From the IMG/VR virus record IMGVR_UViG_3300046167_000873, positions 86,921-150,920 of that record: DNA of 64,000 nucleotides. One strand, 5' to 3'. The number at the start of each line of letters is the position of its first letter. Within the stretch, counting starts at the first letter, position 1. The position numbers and the translations under genes are program-made. The DNA is from a virus. The notes under the pieces are model-generated. The model searched no databases. It was not told the origin of the DNA and saw only the letters and a list, made by a program, of their open reading frames with translations. Positions 51,042 to 62,245 of the stretch are shown here, in pieces.

Positions 51042-52661
51042 TTAAGCTAAATCTTTATCGTGGTTTAAACCACCTTTCTTCTTCTTCGTAATAAAGGCGT
51101 TTACGCGCGCATGTCCCCATTGTTGTGGAGTAGTACCAGGACGATGGCCTGTTTTCCATGCTGCAACACCACGGTTATAAACCTTTTTTAAAGTAGCTAC
51201 AGAAATACCAGACTTCTTTGACTTTTCAGCAAAACTATTTTCTTGTATAACTTCTTCTTTATTGAGTTTTTTATTTCTTGCATCACGTTCTTTCTTTAAC
51301 AACGCTGCAACTGCGCTCATTTTCTGACGATCAGCAGATGTAGGTTGATTTGCTTTAGATGCACGATAGTCAGCAAAGTTAGTTCCTTCATCAGCTTGCT
51401 CGACTTCTTCAGAGAAACCAAAGACCTTGTCTACCTTCTTCTTACCATACTTGGCACGTAAGATTTCAGAGACAGCACCTTCTTTATCATAACCCTTGAC
51501 ATCGTCACCTCTGTTTACAAGAGCAACTTTATTACGGAGTTGTTTGATAGGCATCTTCTTCAGTTCTTGATATTCTTTATACATCGGTGAAGACTTATCA
51601 ATCTTGCCTTCATCAACCTGCTCGACTTCTTCACCCTGCCACTCTGGTTCTTGTTTCTGTCTATTTTTCTGCAAATAATCATGATCTGCTTTAGTCCATT
51701 TTCCAGAACTAGACTTCTTACCAACTTCTTTCTTTACTTCCGGTTTTTTAGCCTGCTCGAGCGACTCTGGAACACAGTTAGGAACTTGCTTATCACCTTT
51801 CTTCTTCATGCCTTGTTGCTTATACCCTTTCCAACAAGTCTTTTCATCCATCATATTGTCAACAAATTTAGTAAATCTTGATTTCTTCATTGGCTTTTCT
51901 CTCGCTTCTTTATCTCCAGGTGCATCTTTATACGCTGATGGATTATCATCGCTCTTTGGACCGTGCTTCTTGAAGTGTGCATCTCGCTTTGCTTTTGTTG
52001 TTTTCTTTAAACCTTTGTGATATGCAGCGGGTTGGGTGCCCTCTCTATCTTTAATATCAGGATCTTGTGCTGACTTTTCTTCGGAGAACTCAACACCAGT
52101 TGCATGAGGCTTCAGATCTTTATGCAGTCTATCAGCATGTGCTTTACTCTTTGCTTTAAAGATTACACCCTTATCAGTAGAACCACCATACTTAATATGA
52201 CCAGCCTTTTCATGTTTCTTCATCACATCATTAGCTTTCTTTTGACGAGAATCACCATCGAGGTGATCAAGGCGTACATGAATCTCTGACTCAGTCATAG
52301 CGTTCTTGATTCGGGTATCTCTTCGACGTGCTTGATCCATCATGCGGTCATGCTTTTCTTTATCGGCTTGTTTTTCTCGCTGAATCTTTTCTCTCGCCAT
52401 CTTAGCATTGACACTTTCTTTTTGAAGTAACTCGTAAGCAACCTTTGCATCAATTGGCAAGCTATACTTGTCAACAATCTTTGAAACACGAAAAACCTTA
52501 GTTGCGCCGAGATTTTCTACTGTCTTTAATTTCTTTTTAATAAAATCAAGTGCTTTTTTATACTTCTTTCTATGAACTGTTTTTGCTCCAATAACTTTCA
52601 TCATTGACGCTGCTTCATCAACGCACTCACCTTCGTCTAAAAACTGACCAAACCTTTTCAT
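51042..52661 (-). CDS. Large basic phage protein with DUF5872-like C-terminus
   Basis: 539 residues, Lys-rich. Contains CWKGYKQQGMKKKGDKQVPNC, two VEQ(V/A)DEG boundaries and a C-terminal domain KSGISVATLKKVYNRGVAAW...GTTPQQWGHARVNAF that matches DUF5872 of phage and giant-virus proteins. The N-terminal half is coiled-coil-like. Likely an internal head or DNA-binding cargo protein; starts at ATG 52661 overlapping the previous gene. Confidence 0.75.
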   Translation of the reverse strand: MKRFGQFLDEGECVDEAASMMKVIGAKTVHRKKYKKALDFIKKKLKTVENLGATKVFRVSKIVDKYSLPIDAKVAYELLQKESVNAKMAREKIQREKQADKEKHDRMMDQARRRDTRIKNAMTESEIHVRLDHLDGDSRQKKANDVMKKHEKAGHIKYGGSTDKGVIFKAKSKAHADRLHKDLKPHATGVEFSEEKSAQDPDIKDREGTQPAAYHKGLKKTTKAKRDAHFKKHGPKSDDNPSAYKDAPGDKEAREKPMKKSRFTKFVDNMMDEKTCWKGYKQQGMKKKGDKQVPNCVPESLEQAKKPEVKKEVGKKSSSGKWTKADHDYLQKNRQKQEPEWQGEEVEQVDEGKIDKSSPMYKEYQELKKMPIKQLRNKVALVNRGDDVKGYDKEGAVSEILRAKYGKKKVDKVFGFSEEVEQADEGTNFADYRASKANQPTSADRQKMSAVAALLKKERDARNKKLNKEEVIQENSFAEKSKKSGISVATLKKVYNRGVAAWKTGHRPGTTPQQWGHARVNAFITKKKKGGLNHDKDLA

Positions 52662-53253: not shown

Positions 53254-54084
53254 TTAACAGTTCCAACGCTTTAATGACATTGCCTTCCTTGTCGGACGAC
53301 CTTTCTCGTCTTTCATAGGACCTTTCATTCCGCCCATTCGAGCACAAAATGATTTACGGCGCTTAGCAGCTTTACCGTCTGGATCGAGCTTACTTGGTGG
53401 AGTAGTTACAGCAGTTTTAACGCCAGCTGCCTTTGCACCTTTACGCGTCAAGCCAGCACCATCCTCGGTTGGTCGCCTATGACCTTTGGCATCATCACCA
53501 CGCTTATTTGGTTTGTCATCTTCGGTGATTGCGAGTTCAGTGTTGATAGCATCAAACGTTTCTTGAGCTGACATAGTATTGCGATATTCTAAAAATGCTT
53601 CCTTTAAATCTTCGTAGCATACATTGTACTTTTCGCTTTTCCTACGCAGATTCTTTTCAATCTTTTCGGTAATGATCTTCTTATATTCAGTTTCATAGAA
53701 ACCATAAACGACATTCATGATGTCATAGTTTTCACGACGAGTTTTTCTTGCTTGACTTAGCCTGCTCATTTCAGCTTTTCGTACTTTAGGAAGTAAGCGT
53801 TTAGCAAGACGAGCAATAACGGCTTTCTTATTAGATAATTTCTTATCAACCTGAGCTCGTTGTGAAAAGCCTAATTTTTTATAGTCTTGGCCGATCTTTC
53901 CTGCTAGTTTACCACGCAAAATTTGACGAGCTTGTTTTTGTGCCCGATTCTTTAGCTTTTTCTGGTCAGCCATTTTAAACTTTGCTTTCTTTCTTCCAAT
54001 TCTCAGTTTGCCCTTGATTCTTTTGGCAACCTGTCTTTTCTTCATTCTTTGCTGTAAATTTAGCACTTCATTGATATTAGACAT
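53254..54084 (-). CDS. Basic protein with DUF6321 C-terminus
   Basis: 276 residues, extremely Lys/Arg-rich. The N-terminal two thirds are helical and basic (RQVAKRIKGKLRIGRKKAKF); the C-terminal DUF6321 region GAGLTRKGAKAAGVKT, TPPSKLDPDGKAAKRRKSFCARM and RKAMSLKRWNC is well preserved. Likely DNA- or RNA-binding and packaged. First gene of the basic block, after a structured intergenic element. Confidence 0.75.
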   Translation of the reverse strand: MSNINEVLNLQQRMKKRQVAKRIKGKLRIGRKKAKFKMADQKKLKNRAQKQARQILRGKLAGKIGQDYKKLGFSQRAQVDKKLSNKKAVIARLAKRLLPKVRKAEMSRLSQARKTRRENYDIMNVVYGFYETEYKKIITEKIEKNLRRKSEKYNVCYEDLKEAFLEYRNTMSAQETFDAINTELAITEDDKPNKRGDDAKGHRRPTEDGAGLTRKGAKAAGVKTAVTTPPSKLDPDGKAAKRRKSFCARMGGMKGPMKDEKGRPTRKAMSLKRWNC

Positions 54085-54115
54085 GCTTTTCCCTGTAATA
54101 ACAGAGAAGCAAGGA

Positions 54116-54172
54116 TGAGGCGGGATATAAAGAATCCTGGCGATTGCCAGAATATGATGAAGGATTGCCTCA
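54116..54172. other. Nested intergenic hairpin structure
   Basis: TGAGGC (54116-54121) pairs with GCCTCA (54167-54172); AATCCT (54133-54138) with AGGATT (54161-54166); CTGGC (54137-54141) with GCCAG (54146-54150) as an alternative inner stem. Region 54085-54209 has no gene. It separates the glycan cassette from the basic head genes. Confidence 0.55.
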
Positions 54173-54209
54173 GCCTAACTTCATTAATTGTTATTATACT
54201 TATATGTTT

Positions 54210-54818
54210 TTAAAATTCACTAAATGGAACGTGATCCCAGGGTAACATGGTCTTTGGATCGTTGGATAAGTTGACTATTTGTGTATCACCTTTAAGAGCG
54301 ATCAGGCGATCCATAAGCGTCTTATATGGATCGGCCATTGCAATATACTCAGGTACATTTTTAAATTGCCAGAGAGGATCTGGGATGCCTCTGGTTTGCA
54401 TATCATATCCAACACCGTATGCTGCAGTTGATCCATCTGGTTGTGGTGTATAGTTCATATCAAAACCAATACAACCAATATGAGTCGGTTTTAAGTGGTG
54501 AAGTATCCAATACATTGTACCGAAATAGATAGGCAGACCTAAGTAAATCCTTGCTTTTTCCCATGGCATCTTTGACATGCCGCAATACGATGCTTTGAAT
54601 CCAAGATTGCCTTCTCTCGAGTGTACTTTCTGATACGCTCTCTTTTTCATATAGAGTTGTTTTCTTAAATCTTGAGGATAATCACCTGCATGTATTAAAT
54701 GGTCCCATTTCGTTGTTACTCGCCAAACATTATTTACACCAACAACCGTAACTTTATCTGTGTGCCAGTCGTTTATTTGTACGAGACTTGGTCCTGATCC
54801 TGCTGCAATGACTTTCAA
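54210..54818 (-). CDS. Putative glycan-modifying enzyme (DUF115/sialyltransferase-like)
   Basis: 202 residues beginning MKVIAAGSGPSLVQINDW, a GxGPS nucleotide-binding start like that of MAF/DUF115 and sialyltransferase-like proteins, then HIGCIGFDMNY. Last gene of the seven-gene cassette and coupled to it by ATGA. The enzymatic activity is a guess from fold pattern and context. Confidence 0.6.
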   Translation of the reverse strand: MKVIAAGSGPSLVQINDWHTDKVTVVGVNNVWRVTTKWDHLIHAGDYPQDLRKQLYMKKRAYQKVHSREGNLGFKASYCGMSKMPWEKARIYLGLPIYFGTMYWILHHLKPTHIGCIGFDMNYTPQPDGSTAAYGVGYDMQTRGIPDPLWQFKNVPEYIAMADPYKTLMDRLIALKGDTQIVNLSNDPKTMLPWDHVPFSEF

Positions 54819-55591
54819 AATCTACGGCCTCTTGCATGGTCTCTATCTTTAAACATAAAGCAGTCATAGTGACTGCCGTGATGACCTGTTTTTGTGAGAC
54901 TATCATTAAGTGTTTTGATTTCTCTGTATCCATATTTTTCATGGTTTTCAACAAATATATTATAGCCATGACTTCGCACTTCGTCTTCCATATCTTGCAT
55001 TGTATAGTTTTGTTCTTTTAATGCCAGATCACTGCATTCAATATAAAGGACAGGCGAGTGCTTCTTTAATAGTTCACGAAATCCTTTTAGCGCCCTAATT
55101 TCACTACCTTCAATATCCATCTTTACAAAATCAATACTATCCAAATCCTTAAACATTTCATCAAGAGTAAAACCTTTGACCCCTGTTTTAGATGGGTGGT
55201 ATTGCTTAATCCAGCTTTCGTTTGCTTTTACTCTTGATGGGTCTTTTACAGCCATTGTTTGATTACTATCAGAAACAATCGCATGGATTGGTGCGATAAC
55301 ATTCTCTAGTCGATTATGCTTTATATTTCTTAAAAGAACTTCATAGCTTTCATTAGTCGCTTCAACAGCATAAATCTTTGGTGGTTTACACTGCAACGCA
55401 AAAGGAATCGAGAAGGTTCCAACATGTGCACCAATATCTAAAACAATATCTGTGCTATGTATGACTTTTTGATCTAACATGATCTTTTGCTTTGGTGTTT
55501 GTAATCCACCGTATCTGACCATGTTACTGTATATTTTATCGTCTGGAACTTCGAGGTTGCCATACTTAGACTCGATCATTTTTGTTTTCAT
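54815..55591 (-). CDS. FkbM-family methyltransferase
   Basis: 258 residues. SAM motif I VLDIGAHVGTFSIPF (50-64), acidic YAVEATNESYEVL, and FVKMDIEGSEIRALKGF with YIECSDL, diagnostic for FkbM enzymes that O-methylate sugars or natural products. Coupled by ATGA on both sides in the glycan cassette. Confidence 0.92.
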   Translation of the reverse strand: MKTKMIESKYGNLEVPDDKIYSNMVRYGGLQTPKQKIMLDQKVIHSTDIVLDIGAHVGTFSIPFALQCKPPKIYAVEATNESYEVLLRNIKHNRLENVIAPIHAIVSDSNQTMAVKDPSRVKANESWIKQYHPSKTGVKGFTLDEMFKDLDSIDFVKMDIEGSEIRALKGFRELLKKHSPVLYIECSDLALKEQNYTMQDMEDEVRSHGYNIFVENHEKYGYREIKTLNDSLTKTGHHGSHYDCFMFKDRDHARGRRF

Positions 55592-56178
55592 AGATACAGT
55601 TCCGTGTCGATTCTTGTGTGAGCCTTTATATTATATCCAAGTTCTGCATATAATTCTGCAACCTTATTTCTTTCTTCTATTGCTGCGTGCTTGTGTTCAA
55701 ATATAATTCTTTTTGGATACACTGACTTATCTTTCCCTACAAGGTACGAATAATAATCAATGAGTATTTTACAGTCATTGCCTTCTACATCAATCTTTAA
55801 CTGCTTTATTTCTTCAATCTGCTTTAACTCTATAAAATCACCGAGTGACATCTGCGGCACAGTTGTCTTTACAAACTTGTGTTCCATCTTAAACCGAATT
55901 GCTTCTGGGTGCATATAACCAATTGAGTTACAACCTTTCCACCAATAAGGTAGATTTTCTTGAGCAATGATTTCAGGTGGTATATGATATATTTCACATG
56001 TTCCATTTGTACCATCAGGTGAAATTGCAATACAGCATTTCTCTACCTTAGGTTTATTCGGTAACCTATCTAGATATGTTTGTATCGGCTCTATTGAGAA
56101 TCCAACAGTGTGATCATCAGCAACCTCGATTAATGTCCTAAAATCACTTGTACCAATTTCTATAAAATCCACATTCAT
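55588..56178 (-). CDS. FkbM-like methyltransferase, short
   Basis: 196 residues. MNVDFIEIGTSDFRTLIEV is a variant SAM-binding start and LKIDVEGNDCKIL the FkbM DxEG motif, followed by KRIIFEHKHA. The Gly-rich loop is shorter than in the neighbour. Probable paralogue acting on the same glycan. Confidence 0.85.
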   Translation of the reverse strand: MNVDFIEIGTSDFRTLIEVADDHTVGFSIEPIQTYLDRLPNKPKVEKCCIAISPDGTNGTCEIYHIPPEIIAQENLPYWWKGCNSIGYMHPEAIRFKMEHKFVKTTVPQMSLGDFIELKQIEEIKQLKIDVEGNDCKILIDYYSYLVGKDKSVYPKRIIFEHKHAAIEERNKVAELYAELGYNIKAHTRIDTELYL

Positions 56179-56828
56179 TTCATAATCCTTTCATCATTAA
56201 ATTCTTCCTTCATCCAACCCTTATACTTACGGTGATAATGAATGAGTGTTTGATCAAATCTTGGTTCTTGATCCCAGCGGCCTAAATGCCAATTAAACTT
56301 TTCAGGCAATCCGTTAAACCTCTGCTGCTCAATCACAAATAGATTAATCATCAATTGATCCCATCCACCCATATGACCACCTGGTGGATTTTGAATATTC
56401 TTTTTAAAGTATTCACCGACCAAAGAATATATTTTTCGAGGAAATACAACAACACCAGAATTGCCATGTCCACCATGTGCATCTAACCATTGGTTTCTCG
56501 ATTTCAATTTCATTTGAACATAGTTAATTCTATCATCTTGTATATGATCAAATATATTATCAAAGTTATTAGTGGCGAGTATGTCGCTATCCATAAAACA
56601 AATTGCGTCGTAGTCTTCACACCAACCTTCAATAAACGGCAGAAAGATACCATAGAAAGGCGCATGCCCAAAATCATGGTCTAAAAACTTATAATCAGAT
56701 CTACACTTTTCAGCATACTTTGATACTGACTTACGACTTAACACGTGATATTCATACCCTAAATCTAAACACGGTCCATCTGTCGCACGTGCTCTATCTC
56801 TGTAATATTGGTATATTAATGTCTTCAT
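56175..56828 (-). CDS. Glycosyltransferase, GT-A type
   Basis: 217 residues. AICFMDSDILATNNFDN contains the DxD metal motif after a nucleotide-binding strand, and YVQMKL, GNSGVVVFPRK and GGWDQLMINLF fit the GT8/GT32-like acceptor side. Likely transfers a hexose in the cassette. Coupled to the GT25-like gene by ATGA. Confidence 0.85.
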   Translation of the reverse strand: MKTLIYQYYRDRARATDGPCLDLGYEYHVLSRKSVSKYAEKCRSDYKFLDHDFGHAPFYGIFLPFIEGWCEDYDAICFMDSDILATNNFDNIFDHIQDDRINYVQMKLKSRNQWLDAHGGHGNSGVVVFPRKIYSLVGEYFKKNIQNPPGGHMGGWDQLMINLFVIEQQRFNGLPEKFNWHLGRWDQEPRFDQTLIHYHRKYKGWMKEEFNDERIMK

Positions 56829-57679
56829 ATTCTTTTTCTTCTTCTATAGCCTGCAGTTTTATTTGTTGGTTTATTCTTATACACATCTGTATTATTAGTA
56901 GTTGCCGGCTTCTCTGGTTCTGGCTTTGGCTTTTGTTTTCGTACCATTTTAGGTCTGTGTCTTGGGTGTGTTGTATCATGCGCCCCAATATAGTGTTCTG
57001 CAAATGATCCAATAAAGGGATAGTTCTTTGTGGCGCTTTTTGCCCAGATCGTACTTTTTCTTAACCAGCCAACTGCTGGTGTTGGCGACATAATTTTAAT
57101 CGGCACTTTTGTTTTGCGTGATTTTAAGAAGTGTGTATTATCTATAGCACCTGGAATACCAATATCTTCAAGCTCTTTTAAAAGAAGTCGTGCAGTTTCT
57201 GGTGTAATAGCATAAGCATGAGCACCTTCGTGGCCGGCACCAATAACATCTACAATTTCAGTCGGAGGGCCTGCTGTCACATGATCATAATCTTCTAATT
57301 TTTGTATCTTATATCCAAGTGCAATAATGCAGTTATCAATAAGATCGATATCTATCTTATGAAACATTACTGCATCATGTTCAAGAATAATCGCAGGCTT
57401 ACCGTGATCCCGTACTTTGCACCACGCCATTGCGTGACCTGATGTTGCGCATTGTGCTGTATTTCTTTTTGGTTTAAATGAATTAACGTTGAGTATCTTG
57501 GTTGGTACTTTTGCCCAAGCGTCCATTGCAACATTAGGTCCGCCGTGATTTCCATCAAACCACTCGATGTATTCCCATTCTAAACCAATTTTATCACACG
57601 AGTCAGAACAAACCTTTGCGTATTCTTCACTGATTAAATTGCCCTTCATCATAATAATAAAAGCTTTTGTTGGTTTCAT
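56825..57679 (-). CDS. Glycosyltransferase family 25-like
   Basis: 284 residues. KAFIIMMKG, AAQ-like AQCATSGHAMAWCKV and AIILEHDAV (E-x-D metal motif) plus HAYAITPETARLLL fit GT25 (LPS galactosyltransferase-type). The C-terminal 50 residues are basic and Pro/Lys-rich (RKQKPKPEPEKPATT), an unusual tail perhaps for membrane or virion attachment. Confidence 0.85.
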   Translation of the reverse strand: MKPTKAFIIMMKGNLISEEYAKVCSDSCDKIGLEWEYIEWFDGNHGGPNVAMDAWAKVPTKILNVNSFKPKRNTAQCATSGHAMAWCKVRDHGKPAIILEHDAVMFHKIDIDLIDNCIIALGYKIQKLEDYDHVTAGPPTEIVDVIGAGHEGAHAYAITPETARLLLKELEDIGIPGAIDNTHFLKSRKTKVPIKIMSPTPAVGWLRKSTIWAKSATKNYPFIGSFAEHYIGAHDTTHPRHRPKMVRKQKPKPEPEKPATTNNTDVYKNKPTNKTAGYRRRKRI

Positions 57680-58341
57680 AAAAGAATATCTAGTGCTTCA
57701 AAATCATTAGCGTAGTATCTTAAAACAGCATCCTTTGTTTTTTGGTCATAATACTCTTCAACTAATTCGTTCATTGGTTTTTGTGGACGCTTACCTGACT
57801 TATGTTGTTTAATTGAGTGCTTGATACTATGGCTTTTACTAAAAAGTTCAAGCTCTTGATTTAAATTTTCATATCGCCATATTTCTATGTTTGGTTGGAT
57901 TTGATCAGCCACTTTAATATAATCAATTTGACAAAATGCATTATTAGTATCTGATTCGTGAACGCCGTTAGAAAACACTTCTCTAAAATGGTTTGCGCTA
58001 GGTTGTTTTCTCTGTTGCTTACACAAAAAGAAATATAGACTTAACTGTCGATCAAACGGATTACGGAGAACCATAATTTTAGTCATTGATTTTGCTTTAT
58101 CACGGGTGATAATCTCGTTACTCACTAATTCATCGAGAGTTAAATGTATAAACCTACTCTGATGTCTATACTTGGATAAGACTGCTGGTGGGATATTATT
58201 GTTGTTTATCCCACAATCATTGACCGCAGTATACTGATCATTAGAGTCACAACAATTCCTTACAAAAAATTCTGCAAGACTAGAGCTTGCATTTTTTGGG
58301 ACTCGTAAGAATATAAAATTGTTTGAATGAGATACTACCAC
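57676..58341 (-). CDS. Sulfotransferase-like protein 1
   Basis: 221 residues. FLRVPKNASSSLAEFF (11-26) has the 5'-phosphosulfate loop pattern PKxASSS, and KIMVLRNPFDRQLSLYFF (89-105) the 3'-phosphate binding R...S pattern, as in carbohydrate sulfotransferases using PAPS. Ends YYANDFEALDILL. Coupled by ATGA with the GT25-like gene. Acts probably on a surface glycan. Confidence 0.82.
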   Translation of the reverse strand: MVVSHSNNFIFLRVPKNASSSLAEFFVRNCCDSNDQYTAVNDCGINNNNIPPAVLSKYRHQSRFIHLTLDELVSNEIITRDKAKSMTKIMVLRNPFDRQLSLYFFLCKQQRKQPSANHFREVFSNGVHESDTNNAFCQIDYIKVADQIQPNIEIWRYENLNQELELFSKSHSIKHSIKQHKSGKRPQKPMNELVEEYYDQKTKDAVLRYYANDFEALDILL

Positions 58342-59189
58342 TATTCTGACGCCTCAATAGCATTATAGATTTTAAAATCATTCGAATAATATTCTTTGAT
58401 TTTATCAATTATATTTTGATCTAATGATTCGAAATGCTTATGGATTGTTTTATTGGATTGAAAATCTGGCAGTGATCTACCACACATTTCTTCTAGCATG
58501 GGCTTTATTTTGGTATCTATATCACATGTTCTATAGACAGTCATCGGCTTACTAAAGTCAATTGTCTCGCTCTGAAGCGTTAAAATAAACCCGCTATACA
58601 AGTGACTTAAAACAGAAACAATCCCTTCAACTGGCGCTTCTGGATCATACTCATAAGGTTTAATGTGTTGGTATTCAATAAAATCTAATGGCTTAAATTC
58701 AGTTAATCTTTCAGGTGAAAAGAGATCACGCAATTTTTTACTTGTATTATTAAAATGGTTTTTTTCTCTGTCTGACTTTGCCAAATATGTTACGTTAGTA
58801 TGTTCCCAATCGATTATCCGCATATGTAGATTATTAAGAGCAGACACAAATCGAATCATTGGATCTTGTACAATAGCAATACATACTACTGGCGCCAGGT
58901 CTGAAACTTCTTCCTCAAAGTTTGATCTATATTTTTCTTCTGAGGCCCTCAGATATTTGATTTTTGTTTCTGCTGAAATCTCACTGTTTAATTTCCGTTT
59001 TTCATACTGATTTGGATCAATTATCCAATTATCTAAATAATCACACGAATCTTCACCTGACGCAGCAGCAACAAGCAAATTCTTGATTGTTTTTGAACCA
59101 CACCTTGGATTAGAATGTACTCTTACATACGTATCGCCGGCTTTAATTATTAAATGCCCTGTATCACCAGGCTGTACTGAGGATTGCAT
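58341..59189 (-). CDS. Sulfotransferase-like protein 2
   Basis: 282 residues. Same architecture as the neighbour: VRVHSNPRCGSKTIKNLL (22-39), AIVQDPMIRFVSALNNL (105-121) and a final IKEYYSNDFKIYNAI. The 5' loop is NPRCGSKT, less canonical than in its neighbour, so substrate or cofactor binding may differ. Heads the cassette; an AATAAATA-like element lies just upstream. Confidence 0.7.
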   Translation of the reverse strand: MQSSVQPGDTGHLIIKAGDTYVRVHSNPRCGSKTIKNLLVAAASGEDSCDYLDNWIIDPNQYEKRKLNSEISAETKIKYLRASEEKYRSNFEEEVSDLAPVVCIAIVQDPMIRFVSALNNLHMRIIDWEHTNVTYLAKSDREKNHFNNTSKKLRDLFSPERLTEFKPLDFIEYQHIKPYEYDPEAPVEGIVSVLSHLYSGFILTLQSETIDFSKPMTVYRTCDIDTKIKPMLEEMCGRSLPDFQSNKTIHKHFESLDQNIIDKIKEYYSNDFKIYNAIEASE

Positions 59190-59230
59190 ACCAATTCACC
59201 CTTGTCAATATTTCTTATATTTATTAAACA

Positions 59231-59875
59231 CTATTTAATAGTTTTACCTGGCGTTCCCATCATTACTTTAAACATTGTCTTACCACTAAAATCACGAAGG
59301 TATCCATAGTCGATGAGAAACGGAAATTTCTTAAGAGTTAATTTTGCATCGTCTGGTAATTCACCTCTATAGCCTTTAACAGGTATAATAGTATCTTTGC
59401 CCTTTGACATTTTAAGGACATCGTCAGGAGATATAAGAAATTGTTTTATGACTTCAGGGGGTGTTATTTTAAGCGCGAGCCCTAAAGCAGCTTTAGATTT
59501 TTCACCATACGCTCGCTTTAAGTCGTTTTTGCATATCTCTATTATACGGCGTTTTCCATCAGCGGATCCATCTGTTCCTGATGCAACGATCTTCCGTCCA
59601 CCCTTGTCTTTGTAAAAAGCAACAGCCACGACTTTACCGTTGACTGTTGCTACTTTCCAAAAAGGGATTTTCATCATGGCTTCTTTGGATTGGAAGCCAT
59701 TACTTTTGATGCCACCTATTGATGCATAGGATTTTTGAACCATATCCCAAACAGTGTCGATATAATCTTCTTTCTTAGGATTATCTGCAATTAAATTGAC
59801 GAATCCTTCGTTTAAGCTTTTAAACTCCTTAAATGACGTCGTCTGTATCTTCGTGTCCATATATAAGCTCTGCAT
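59231..59875 (-). CDS. Conserved phage protein (possible GNAT-like fold)
   Basis: About 208-214 residues; the start may be at 59857 (MDTKIQTTSFKEFKSLNEGF). YASIGGIKSNGFQSKEAMMKIPFWKVATVNGKVVAVAFYKDKGGRK fits an acetyltransferase-like beta-sheet core, and proteins of this kind occur in marine myoviruses near head genes. Overlaps the hydrolase gene by 47 bases. An exact late promoter lies 100 bases upstream. Confidence 0.6.
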   Translation of the reverse strand: MQSLYMDTKIQTTSFKEFKSLNEGFVNLIADNPKKEDYIDTVWDMVQKSYASIGGIKSNGFQSKEAMMKIPFWKVATVNGKVVAVAFYKDKGGRKIVASGTDGSADGKRRIIEICKNDLKRAYGEKSKAALGLALKITPPEVIKQFLISPDDVLKMSKGKDTIIPVKGYRGELPDDAKLTLKKFPFLIDYGYLRDFSGKTMFKVMMGTPGKTIK

Positions 59876-60458
59876 TTATATAAAATGATTTTATCAGTTC
59901 TATACTTTCATCCCAATGCTGAAACCGGTGATTACCACCAGGAAAAGAATGAACTTTAAAACTGCTATCATACTTATTTATAGTTGCATGAGAGTCAATA
60001 ACTTCATCATCCATATCAAGTAAAATAAGTCCACAGCCTTCATGACCCATCGGGTCATATGAATTTACAGTAGCTTCAGTAAGATGATACTTTTTACCGT
60101 CATACGTTTCACCATCACCAATTCTACGCTGTAGAGTCTTTTCAGGATCAACGGCTGGATTAATTGCAACAAACGGTATGCCGTATTTGTGGCCAAGACG
60201 TTGAGCTAACCAACCTCCCATAGAAGTGCCTATAAAAAGATCTATTTCAAGCAATTCTGATTGATGGTAAATACTATGATAAAACTCTAGCTGATCATCA
60301 ACTGATAAAGTATAATCTGGTGTAAAGTTCCAAACCGTTCCATGATGCAAGAATGAACTTACAAGCTTATTTAAATAGTACTTCTTAGTGCCTGGTTCTG
60401 GCAGTGGTCCATTGTCTAATGGTTGACCGCCAAACCCATTAATATACATCACATTCAT
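59829..60458 (-). CDS. Alpha/beta hydrolase (esterase/thioesterase type)
   Basis: 209 residues from ATG 60458 (MNVMYINGFGGQPLDNG). Catalytic triad by pattern: S79 in GTSMGGW, D151 in LLDMDDEV, H177 in PGGNHRF. YqiA-like small hydrolase. GGGAG lies ahead of the start. Contains an internal late promoter on the same strand for the next gene. Substrate unknown. Confidence 0.85.
   Translation of the reverse strand: MNVMYINGFGGQPLDNGPLPEPGTKKYYLNKLVSSFLHHGTVWNFTPDYTLSVDDQLEFYHSIYHQSELLEIDLFIGTSMGGWLAQRLGHKYGIPFVAINPAVDPEKTLQRRIGDGETYDGKKYHLTEATVNSYDPMGHEGCGLILLDMDDEVIDSHATINKYDSSFKVHSFPGGNHRFQHWDESIELIKSFYINAELIYGHEDTDDVI
59975..59982 (-). promoter_or_regulatory. Late promoter inside the hydrolase gene
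   Basis: Exact TATAAATA on the minus strand, 100 bases upstream of the gene at 59875, giving a leader of about 90 bases. Could drive the 59231 gene and the glycan cassette late. Chance occurrence cannot be excluded. Confidence 0.45.
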
Positions 60459-60459
60459 A

Positions 60460-60642
60460 TTAAACCATCTCCCGCTGTTCGTCGATTTGATCACCAATTC
60501 GATCTTCTATTTGATCAAGTTTGATACTTTTTTCTTTACCTTCAGGCGTACCAGAAGACCATGACTCCCTACTATTAAGAGTAAGCGAAGATATAATCAT
60601 ATAAATGTCTTCACCAGAAAGTTCTAGATTAAATTTTTTCAT
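60460..60642 (-). CDS. Small hypothetical protein (60 aa)
   Basis: MKKFNLELSGEDIYMIISSL and SIKLDQIEDRIGDQIDEQR: helical, acidic end. Two bases before the hydrolase start. Unrecognised. Confidence 0.6.
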   Translation of the reverse strand: MKKFNLELSGEDIYMIISSLTLNSRESWSSGTPEGKEKSIKLDQIEDRIGDQIDEQREMV

Positions 60643-61597: not shown

Positions 61598-62245
61598 TTA
61601 TTTTCGCAATATTGCTTGTTCTCCACGGACGACGAGTGATGTTCTTATCTCATAATTGCAATTGACTGGAGCATCTGCTGAGTGAAGCGTTCTGCCGTCA
61701 AAGAAGACAAGGCGGTTTGGAATATAGTCAATTGACTCAACAAGTTCTTTTTCACGATTGTAAAAATGAAGCTGACCTCCCCAATCCTTATTCCATGTTG
61801 GTTGGTCGTAATATAAAAAAGATATATTTTGATCTGATTGACTATCAAGGTGTATCGTTCCTTGAAGACCAACAGTTTGCCCATTAGTACCAATATAATC
61901 TAAGCTTCCCCAATCAAAACCAAAACTATCTTGAATAAGATTGTGCATAAATCTTGTGAAGACATGTCTTCCTGAGGTATACTCTTCTTCACGTATTATA
62001 TTACTGAGAGGATCAAACGTATCAGGGCAATTCCGATGTTTTATATACAAAGCGGTACCCCAAAATCGGTGTGCATATTCACCATTGGGTTTTTGTACTT
62101 GATTCGAGAGCTGCCAAGAAAAAGAACTTATCATCTTATTCACCCAAGCGTGCGTTAAAGGGTGAAGCCAATTGTCTATAATGTTAATATTTTTCAAAGG
62201 AAGCTCATCGATGTGAAAAGCTTTTTCGTGCTTAACTACTTTCAT
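61598..62245 (-). CDS. 2OG-Fe(II) oxygenase
   Basis: 215 residues with H132-x-D134 (GTIHLDSQSD), H188 (TLHSADA) and R201 (YEIRTSLVV), and WGGQLHFYN with RLVFFDGR as in prolyl-hydroxylase-like phage enzymes. Second such enzyme in the window, not closely similar to the one at 40307. Substrate unknown; protein or nucleic acid hydroxylation is possible. Confidence 0.9.
   Translation of the reverse strand: MKVVKHEKAFHIDELPLKNINIIDNWLHPLTHAWVNKMISSFSWQLSNQVQKPNGEYAHRFWGTALYIKHRNCPDTFDPLSNIIREEEYTSGRHVFTRFMHNLIQDSFGFDWGSLDYIGTNGQTVGLQGTIHLDSQSDQNISFLYYDQPTWNKDWGGQLHFYNREKELVESIDYIPNRLVFFDGRTLHSADAPVNCNYEIRTSLVVRGEQAILRK

Follow-up and report, generated by a model that had tools for sequence, protein, structure and literature searches.

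The IMG/VR virus record IMGVR_UViG_3300046167_000873 comprises 150,920 bases, the final 64,000 of which are hereafter called the window. The phage is T4-like by its matches to families of the baseplate wedge, the hub/lysozyme, primase and ribonucleotide reductase, and the sole DNA-level match among phage records is Phage C48C1, which is filed under Kyanoviridae; the cyanophage marker psbA was absent from all eight records checked. The positions of the open reading frames (ORFs) confirm a run of seven genes on the minus strand at 54210-59189, as an earlier note on this DNA had proposed. In order of transcription, with the core and accessory status that emerges from the comparisons below, these are:

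58341-59189, minus strand: ST1, sulfotransferase-like protein 1, 282 amino acids, accessory, first of the run (PF03567, 29.0 bits)
57676-58341, minus strand: ST2, sulfotransferase-like protein 2, 221 amino acids, GTG start, core gene (PF03567, 43.9 bits)
56825-57679, minus strand: GT25-like glycosyltransferase, 284 amino acids, core gene (PF01755, 19.4 bits)
56175-56828, minus strand: predicted GT-A-fold glycosyltransferase (GT-A), 217 amino acids, core gene (fold model, DxD motif)
55588-56178, minus strand: FkbM1 methyltransferase, 196 amino acids, accessory gene (PF05050, 33.3 bits)
54815-55591, minus strand: FkbM2 methyltransferase, 258 amino acids, accessory gene (PF05050, 66.9 bits)
54210-54818, minus strand: DUF115/GT42-like protein (DUF115-like), 202 amino acids, TTG start, core gene (relatives in other cassettes)

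All six junctions within the run overlap, by 1-4 nucleotides (nt). The earlier note described ATGA overlaps between almost all of the genes; the overlap itself is general, but ATGA is found at only four of the six junctions (ST2/GT25, GT25/GT-A, GT-A/FkbM1 and FkbM1/FkbM2), the FkbM2/DUF115-like junction being a 4-nt TTGA overlap and the ST1/ST2 junction a 1-nt TAGTG overlap.

Sulfotransferase-like proteins

ST1 and ST2, both labelled sulfotransferase-like in the earlier note on the understanding that profiles matching neither protein would speak against it, each exceed the Pfam curated cut-off for PF03567 (22 bits) and are the only matches to this family in the 150,920-base record. ST2 also matches PHROG 3347, galactose-3-O-sulfotransferase (E 6.8e-9), and its relatives score over the PF03567 cut-off in 16 of 19 records. 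The PKNASSS and RNP..RQLS blocks of ST2, which correspond to the 5'-phosphosulfate loop and the 3'-phosphate block, are invariant among three aligned relatives. Sequence searches of the PDB gave no significant match; a profile of ST2 relatives returned three rows at E<=5, all of them sulfotransferases (best E 1.6).

ST1 passes the threshold as a whole protein and possesses a SNPRCGSKT loop. It is nevertheless the weaker sulfotransferase claim of the pair, because its best single stretch in a six-frame search of the record reaches only 16.1 bits, under the cut-off, because a Q occupies the position in VQDPMIRFVS where R is expected before the 3'-phosphate-binding block, and because no relatives were found in phage records or in viral_contigs. 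A third type of protein, ST3, is present in relatives of the cassette and contains a FGLQRTGTT loop without belonging to a Pfam family. An ST3 profile returned three chains of one sulfotransferase entry in the PDB, below significance (E 0.4). No match was obtained between the profiles of ST3 and ST2, and ST3 is therefore termed sulfotransferase-like from its loop alone.

Glycosyltransferases and methyltransferases

The GT25-like protein scores below the PF01755 cut-off of 24 bits, which supports no more than the GT25-like label of the earlier note; GT25 is described in Pfam as a lipopolysaccharide (LPS) family. Relatives of this protein, 44-48% identical, come after ST2 in other phages. The gene at 56175-56828 is without a Pfam family match, and its product is predicted to have a GT-A fold, in agreement with the earlier label: an AlphaFold model of middling confidence (mean pLDDT 67.4), built with four relatives, matched 23 PDB entries at E<=1e-3, almost all of them glycosyltransferases that use nucleotide sugars (GT-A enzymes), and D80 and D82 of the DxD motif are invariant in five aligned sequences.

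The seventh protein, like GT-A, has no Pfam family. Its relatives within other cassettes are 57-62% identical, and none of eight relatives matched a relevant Pfam family at E<=1; the DUF115/sialyltransferase label of the earlier note is thus left with PHROG 4603 (‘alpha-2;3-sialyltransferase’), matched at E 0.073 by the protein itself and by two of the eight relatives (best E 0.044). The structural model is poor (pLDDT 54.5) and returned no Foldseek match at E<=1e-3. A second structure comparison of the same model placed rows for CstII, a lipooligosaccharide (LOS) sialyltransferase, among the top 9 with middling scores (Z 6.0-6.5), and MurG, UGTs and thiamine pyrophosphokinases score similarly.

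Both FkbM proteins exceed the PF05050 curated cut-off (22.7 bits), which upholds their labels, and they account for all PF05050 matches in the record. FkbM2 additionally matches TIGR01444 (93.3 bits against a cut-off of 37.7) and falls below the cut-off of the Vibrio cholerae RfbT model (21.7 against 27.9).

Sulfation, methylation and glycosylation is the likely chemistry of the cassette as judged from these families, and the coupled set proposed in the earlier note is supported by the profile matches and by co-occurrence in relatives. PF03567 and FkbM are glycan-type families, and searches of Pfam, PHROGs and NCBIfam linked none of the seven proteins to a glycosyltransferase family that modifies DNA; both points count against the idea that the cassette enzymes modify phage DNA against restriction. 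DNA can be a substrate of glycosyltransferases in T4-like phages, one of the options named in PMC7029224, but since no family matches we set this explanation aside as highly improbable.

Recurrence of the cassette in other contigs

A search of 50,697 phage records at E<=1e-3 returned no relative of ST1, ST2, GT-A or the DUF115-like protein, one relative each of the GT25-like protein (29% identity) and FkbM1 (25%), and 22 records with distant relatives of FkbM2. At E<=10 the only ST2 match among these records was Mosig, which is considered below. Short-pattern scans, in which absence is weak evidence, gave no match to ST2, FkbM2 or ST1 as single proteins in viral_contigs and no bacterial relative of the DUF115-like protein or ST2 in genome_contigs. 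Scanning viral_contigs with GT-A revealed 22 loci, of which six (L016-L021) are full-length or almost full-length matches with 40-42% identity and 16 are partial or weaker; further scans gave 16 loci with ST2 and seven with the DUF115-like protein.

L016 and L019/L020 carry the run methyltransferase, GT-A, DUF115-like, ST2, GT25-like, ST3, in which the methyltransferase belongs to PF13578 (34.8 bits against 26.3). Counting ST2 relatives at >=35% identity over >=100 residues in all loci from L010 onwards, with L061 (23%) excluded, 26 loci possess one; as several loci repeat one contig, these reduce to 11 clusters at 95% identity. A GT25-like gene comes after ST2 in ten of the 11 clusters, the exception being L048, in which ST2 has no partner genes. 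These counts are biased, as ST2 was itself the query. The less biased DUF115-like query gave six distinct contigs from its seven loci (the cassettes of L062 and L063 are near-identical), and ST2 lies in the same run in four of them (L062/L063, L064, L066 and L067); of the others, L068, which is the contig of L021, is without ST2, and in L065 the sequence covered ends at that point, so that it counts neither way. Among four distinct contigs with full-length GT-A relatives, ST2 is present in two (L016 and L019/L020) and missing in L017/L018 and L021.

The arrangement of the genes varies considerably. The DUF115-like gene precedes GT-A in L058, whereas the order in L067 is ST2, GT25-like, GT-A, methyltransferase, DUF115-like. 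A second PF03567 gene (51.7 bits) adjoins ST2 in L066, and in L051 the space between GT-A and ST2 is taken up by a PF13489 methyltransferase (35.1 bits against 27) together with a protein that matches PF00685 weakly (15 against 22). GT-A and DUF115-like are joined in L021 as a single open frame of 430 residues. Across these arrangements, then, genes of the glycosyltransferase, sulfotransferase-like and methyltransferase classes remain grouped, whereas individual accessory genes are exchanged. The core is GT-A, DUF115-like, ST2 and GT25-like, usually accompanied by an S-adenosylmethionine (SAM)-dependent methyltransferase, and it recurs in reshuffled form in T4-like IMG/VR contigs; the accessory genes of the window are ST1 and the two FkbM genes. 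On this comparison of gene content the cassette is real and conserved beyond chance, and the set is shuffled rather than merely inherited, its accessory enzymes being exchanged for others of the same class. The earlier note would have yielded to genes scattered in relatives without co-occurrence; the core genes co-occur.

Two neighbouring genes were observed in these contigs: a ring-hydroxylating oxygenase alpha-subunit-like gene (PF00848, 31.3 bits) adjoins the GT-A relative at L017:2599-3666, and a 2OG-Fe(II) oxygenase gene (PF13759) stands directly before the cassette of L020. The window has a 2OG-Fe(II) oxygenase of its own at 61598-62245 on the minus strand (PF13661, 36.7 bits), with a match to the FlmC model below the cut-off.

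A variable slot in the phage genome

The cassette is flanked by the following features:

59829-60497, minus strand: UPF0227 gene, second border gene (PF05728, 65.1 bits), adjoining the border gene in relatives
59231-59875, minus strand: conserved slot-border gene of no assigned function, whose relatives in C48C1 and in five IMG/VR contigs are 54-71% identical
54085-54210, minus strand: structured gap between cassette and border gene (RNA fold -35.1 kcal/mol, z -4.03, 200 shuffles)
53254-54084, minus strand: DUF6321 gene bordering the other side of the slot (PF19846, 50.2 bits), with relatives flanking the slot
51042-52661, minus strand: DUF5824 gene downstream of the slot (PF19141, 65.8 bits), with relatives downstream of other cassettes

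A relative of the DUF6321 or DUF5824 gene occurs within 6 kb downstream in eight of the 11 ST2 clusters; among the remaining three, L046/L047 shows a weak blastp match (28%), the contig ends in L016, and L048 is without a relative. The border gene with its UPF0227 neighbour on one side and the DUF6321 gene on the other are also kept in C48C1, L012 and L013, where the slot of approximately 5 kb holds cytochrome c peroxidase, tRNA-Ala, an exonuclease (C48C1 annotation) and a gene related to the DUF6267 gene found in L020. No PF03567 match at E<=0.01 was obtained in the seven records reached through neighbouring genes (C48C1, AG-345-L05 and five IMG/VR contigs). Because the same slot carries other genes in nearer relatives, the cassette is replaceable cargo.

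This variety of cargo raises the question of whether the seven genes share a product at all. They might be separate accessory enzymes, acting on different targets such as host metabolites, lipids or single proteins, that have gathered in a permissive slot. FkbM and sulfotransferase families have broad substrates, the slot of nearer relatives holds the peroxidase, exonuclease and tRNA already mentioned, ST2 occurs alone in L048, and GT-A lies beside a Ring_hydroxyl_A oxygenase in L017. Against this, the four core genes recur jointly, in changed order, in distinct phages, and two of them are joined in one frame in L021; we consider independent enzymes improbable.

Several other features of the slot deserve mention. 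The cytochrome c peroxidase-like proteins of C48C1 and two IMG/VR contigs (L002:10503-11924, L012:6520-7968 and L013:10684-12102) are of the di-haem type (PF03150, 82.2 bits in L013) and have a lipoprotein-type N-terminus, and are an unusual phage cargo. The gap at 54085-54210 is a candidate terminator or other RNA element on the minus strand. A tmRNA-like gene (tag AVNDDNFEYALAA) lies downstream of the border gene in the related virus contigs L014 (8721-9108) and L015 (11101-11488), both of which have large tRNA arrays upstream of it. Three adjacent genes are present at L005:7490-9617; one product starts like a sugar nucleotidyltransferase (MNVVIPMAGRGSRF) and matches solely PHROG 3980, which has no assigned function, and no Pfam family.

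A late promoter-like motif

The first gene of the cassette is preceded by the following element:

59218-59225, minus strand: AATAAATA, motif resembling a T4-type late promoter, within the gap of 41 nt that precedes ST1

ATAAATA is the core of the T4 late promoter. In the whole record, 15 of 54 ATAAATA sites lie 10-60 nt upstream of an ORF start, against 1.4 expected, and six scrambled control motifs gave 4-11 sites against 1.5-2.9 expected, the highest value (11 against 1.5) coming from TAAATAA, which overlaps the motif. By number alone, the TATAAATA occurrences of the window do not exceed chance (10 against 6.5, a count reached by 14 of 100 shuffles), so only the position of the motif relative to ORF starts is informative. 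We surveyed ten cassettes, leaving out L046/L047, L055 (cut at contig start) and L048. In five of them the motif stands no more than 60 nt ahead of the first cassette gene (the window, L016, L020, L058 and L066; binomial 2.4e-6, with the 60-nt limit set after inspection of the data), and in L051, L060, L067 and L065 it does not. The L052 copy, which is 12 nt ahead of an upstream gene and so too near, was not counted. Four of the five are convincing, because a terminator-like hairpin separates motif and gene in L016. The cassette is probably expressed late, to judge from the placing of this motif.

Possible targets of the cassette enzymes

The explanation that we favour, tentatively and with slightly less than even confidence, is that this swappable late cassette remodels the outer core of the host LOS/LPS. 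The seven genes would constitute replaceable cargo of a T4-like phage, inserted at a variable place in its genome, and would probably be transcribed late, with coupled translation of the whole run. Being soluble and cytosolic, the products would draw on host-made nucleotide sugars, SAM and 3'-phosphoadenosine-5'-phosphosulfate (PAPS). GT-A, the GT25-like and the DUF115-like enzymes would add sugars, ST1 and ST2 sulfate, and the FkbM enzymes O-methyl groups, the acceptor being the lipid-A-linked outer-core oligosaccharide at the inner face of the inner membrane, from where the host would export the product. Other phages, and progeny meeting debris, might then no longer bind their native receptor on the sulfated, methylated surface.

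Transmembrane-like stretches are absent from the cassette proteins, whose highest 19-residue mean is 1.55, and Pfam gave no family of carriers, flippases or polymerases within the seven-gene run; the cassette should therefore act on something cytoplasmic or exposed on the inner membrane face. Core-type glycan enzymes are expected to be without transmembrane stretches, and LOS outer-core synthesis uses similar enzyme classes. The description of GT25 as an LPS family, the sub-threshold RfbT match of FkbM2 and the CstII rows for the DUF115-like protein point the same way. It is this resemblance to LOS synthesis, together with the proposal in PMC7029224 that pelagimyophage glycosyltransferases change the host O-chain, that leads us to favour host LOS/LPS.

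APS kinase was not found in the eight records searched (this record, C48C1, Mosig and five cassette contigs), so PAPS would be supplied by the host. Table 3 of PMC5069961 lists cysC, cysQ and aprA and no cysD, H, I or J for HTCC1062, although the text of that paper, contrary to the table, counts cysC among the absent genes. A host supply of PAPS in SAR11 is therefore possible.

A number of observations weigh against remodelling of the host LOS/LPS: the R-to-Q replacement in ST1 and its lack of relatives, the sub-threshold score of the GT25-like protein, the similar scores of MurG, UGTs and thiamine pyrophosphokinases to CstII on the DUF115-like model, the loci with GT-A without ST2 (L017/L018 and L021) or ST2 without partners (L048), and the absence of a donor-making gene from the cassette and of an APS kinase from the record. 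Late timing also fits decoration of the virion equally well or better. In this main rival, which we place close behind as somewhat less probable, a structural protein of the phage (of the tail fibre, the capsid or its decoration) would be the cytoplasmic target of the same enzymes, and the particle would gain a sulfated, methylated glycan. The late motif in five of the ten cassettes is consistent with it, as is the fact that the run has no gene for a lipid carrier, a flippase or a polymerase. The PBCV-1 capsid glycosyltransferase 2p72, to which GT-A is structurally most similar, is likewise a virus-encoded GT-A enzyme and is described as glycosylating the major capsid protein, but PBCV-1 is a eukaryotic virus and so distant a match (11% identity, TM 0.5) informs on the fold only.

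The flanks of the slot in relatives further hold genes with N-termini reminiscent of capsid targeting. FKxFLxE-like N-termini, which resemble the T4 capsid targeting sequence, are found on several genes around the slot in L002, L012, L013, L020 and L058 (six of 30 ORFs for L002, where shuffling gives 0.4), and the proteins that bear them may be internal head proteins. They cluster in some relatives and are not enriched in the window (1 against 0.6 by shuffling). No acceptor protein for virion decoration emerged, and a variable, shuffled set is more easily attributed to variable host surfaces; both points count against this rival.

Comparison with known systems

A counterpart in an isolate is the run Mosig_00185-00191 of phage Mosig EXVC030M (MT647606), in which two FkbM genes (PF05050, 41.9 and 58.5 bits), a GT8 gene (PF01501, 30.9 bits) and a PF03567 gene (47.1 bits), all over cut-off, form a sulfotransferase-methyltransferase-glycosyltransferase set like that of the window. 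The main text of the Mosig genome announcement contains no word beginning sulf- or glyco-, nor lipopolysaccharide, methyltransferase or auxiliary. In contrast to the window cassette, the Mosig run adjoins ribonucleotide reductase, has low identity to it (ST2 23%, FkbM1 25%, FkbM2 29-38%), yields no GT-A, DUF115-like or GT25-like relatives by BLAST, and has no ATAAATA within 300 nt.

Gtr serotype-conversion modules are membrane-bound, lipid-carrier-based and temperate. They too alter a host surface glycan and block superinfection, whereas the window cassette would consist of soluble enzymes with predicted sulfation. The gtrABC genes of temperate phages such as P22 are named in the abstract of PMC10883804.

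Another parallel is provided by pelagimyophages, also T4-like aquatic myophages, for which PMC7029224 describes a hypervariable ‘host recognition cluster’ with LPS glycosyltransferases, an island that is bounded by VrlC and gp14 and includes tail fibres, and proposes a surface change directed against coinfection. The window differs in its compact sulfotransferase core, situated between the DUF5824/DUF6321 and UPF0227 genes. The words sulfotransferase and methyltransferase are not used in the main text of PMC7029224, nor sulfotransferase in that of PMC9599517. Sulfotransferases of another family, PF13469, are reported from other aquatic phages (OM43 phages and S-SRM01) in sections of PMC10580990, where no cassette is described. 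No paper listed in searches of the open literature (without subscription papers and preprints) describes, in its title or abstract opening, a phage cassette of sulfotransferases and glycosyltransferases. Phage glycosyltransferase islands are already known; the conserved sulfotransferase-centred core adds a new variation on them.

Significance

More broadly, and with more doubt than confidence, aquatic T4-like phages may share a modular late ‘sulfoglycan’ cassette with a kept core (GT-A, DUF115-like, sulfotransferase and GT25-like) and a second sulfotransferase and a methyltransferase that are swapped between lineages. Its product would be a phage-specified, sulfated and O-methylated acidic coat on the infected cell or the virion, and the host would supply the PAPS for it, also where a streamlined metabolism lacks sulfate reduction but keeps cysC and cysQ. 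The role of phage sulfotransferases is called unclear in PMC10580990, and the conserved core gives a handle on it. Mosig on Pelagibacter HTCC1062 offers an isolate with an equivalent set, and the suspected product would have a clear mass signature of sulfate and O-methyl groups. If aquatic phages do sulfate a surface in this way, competition between phages, the charge of their particles and the use of sulfur by the host would all be affected.

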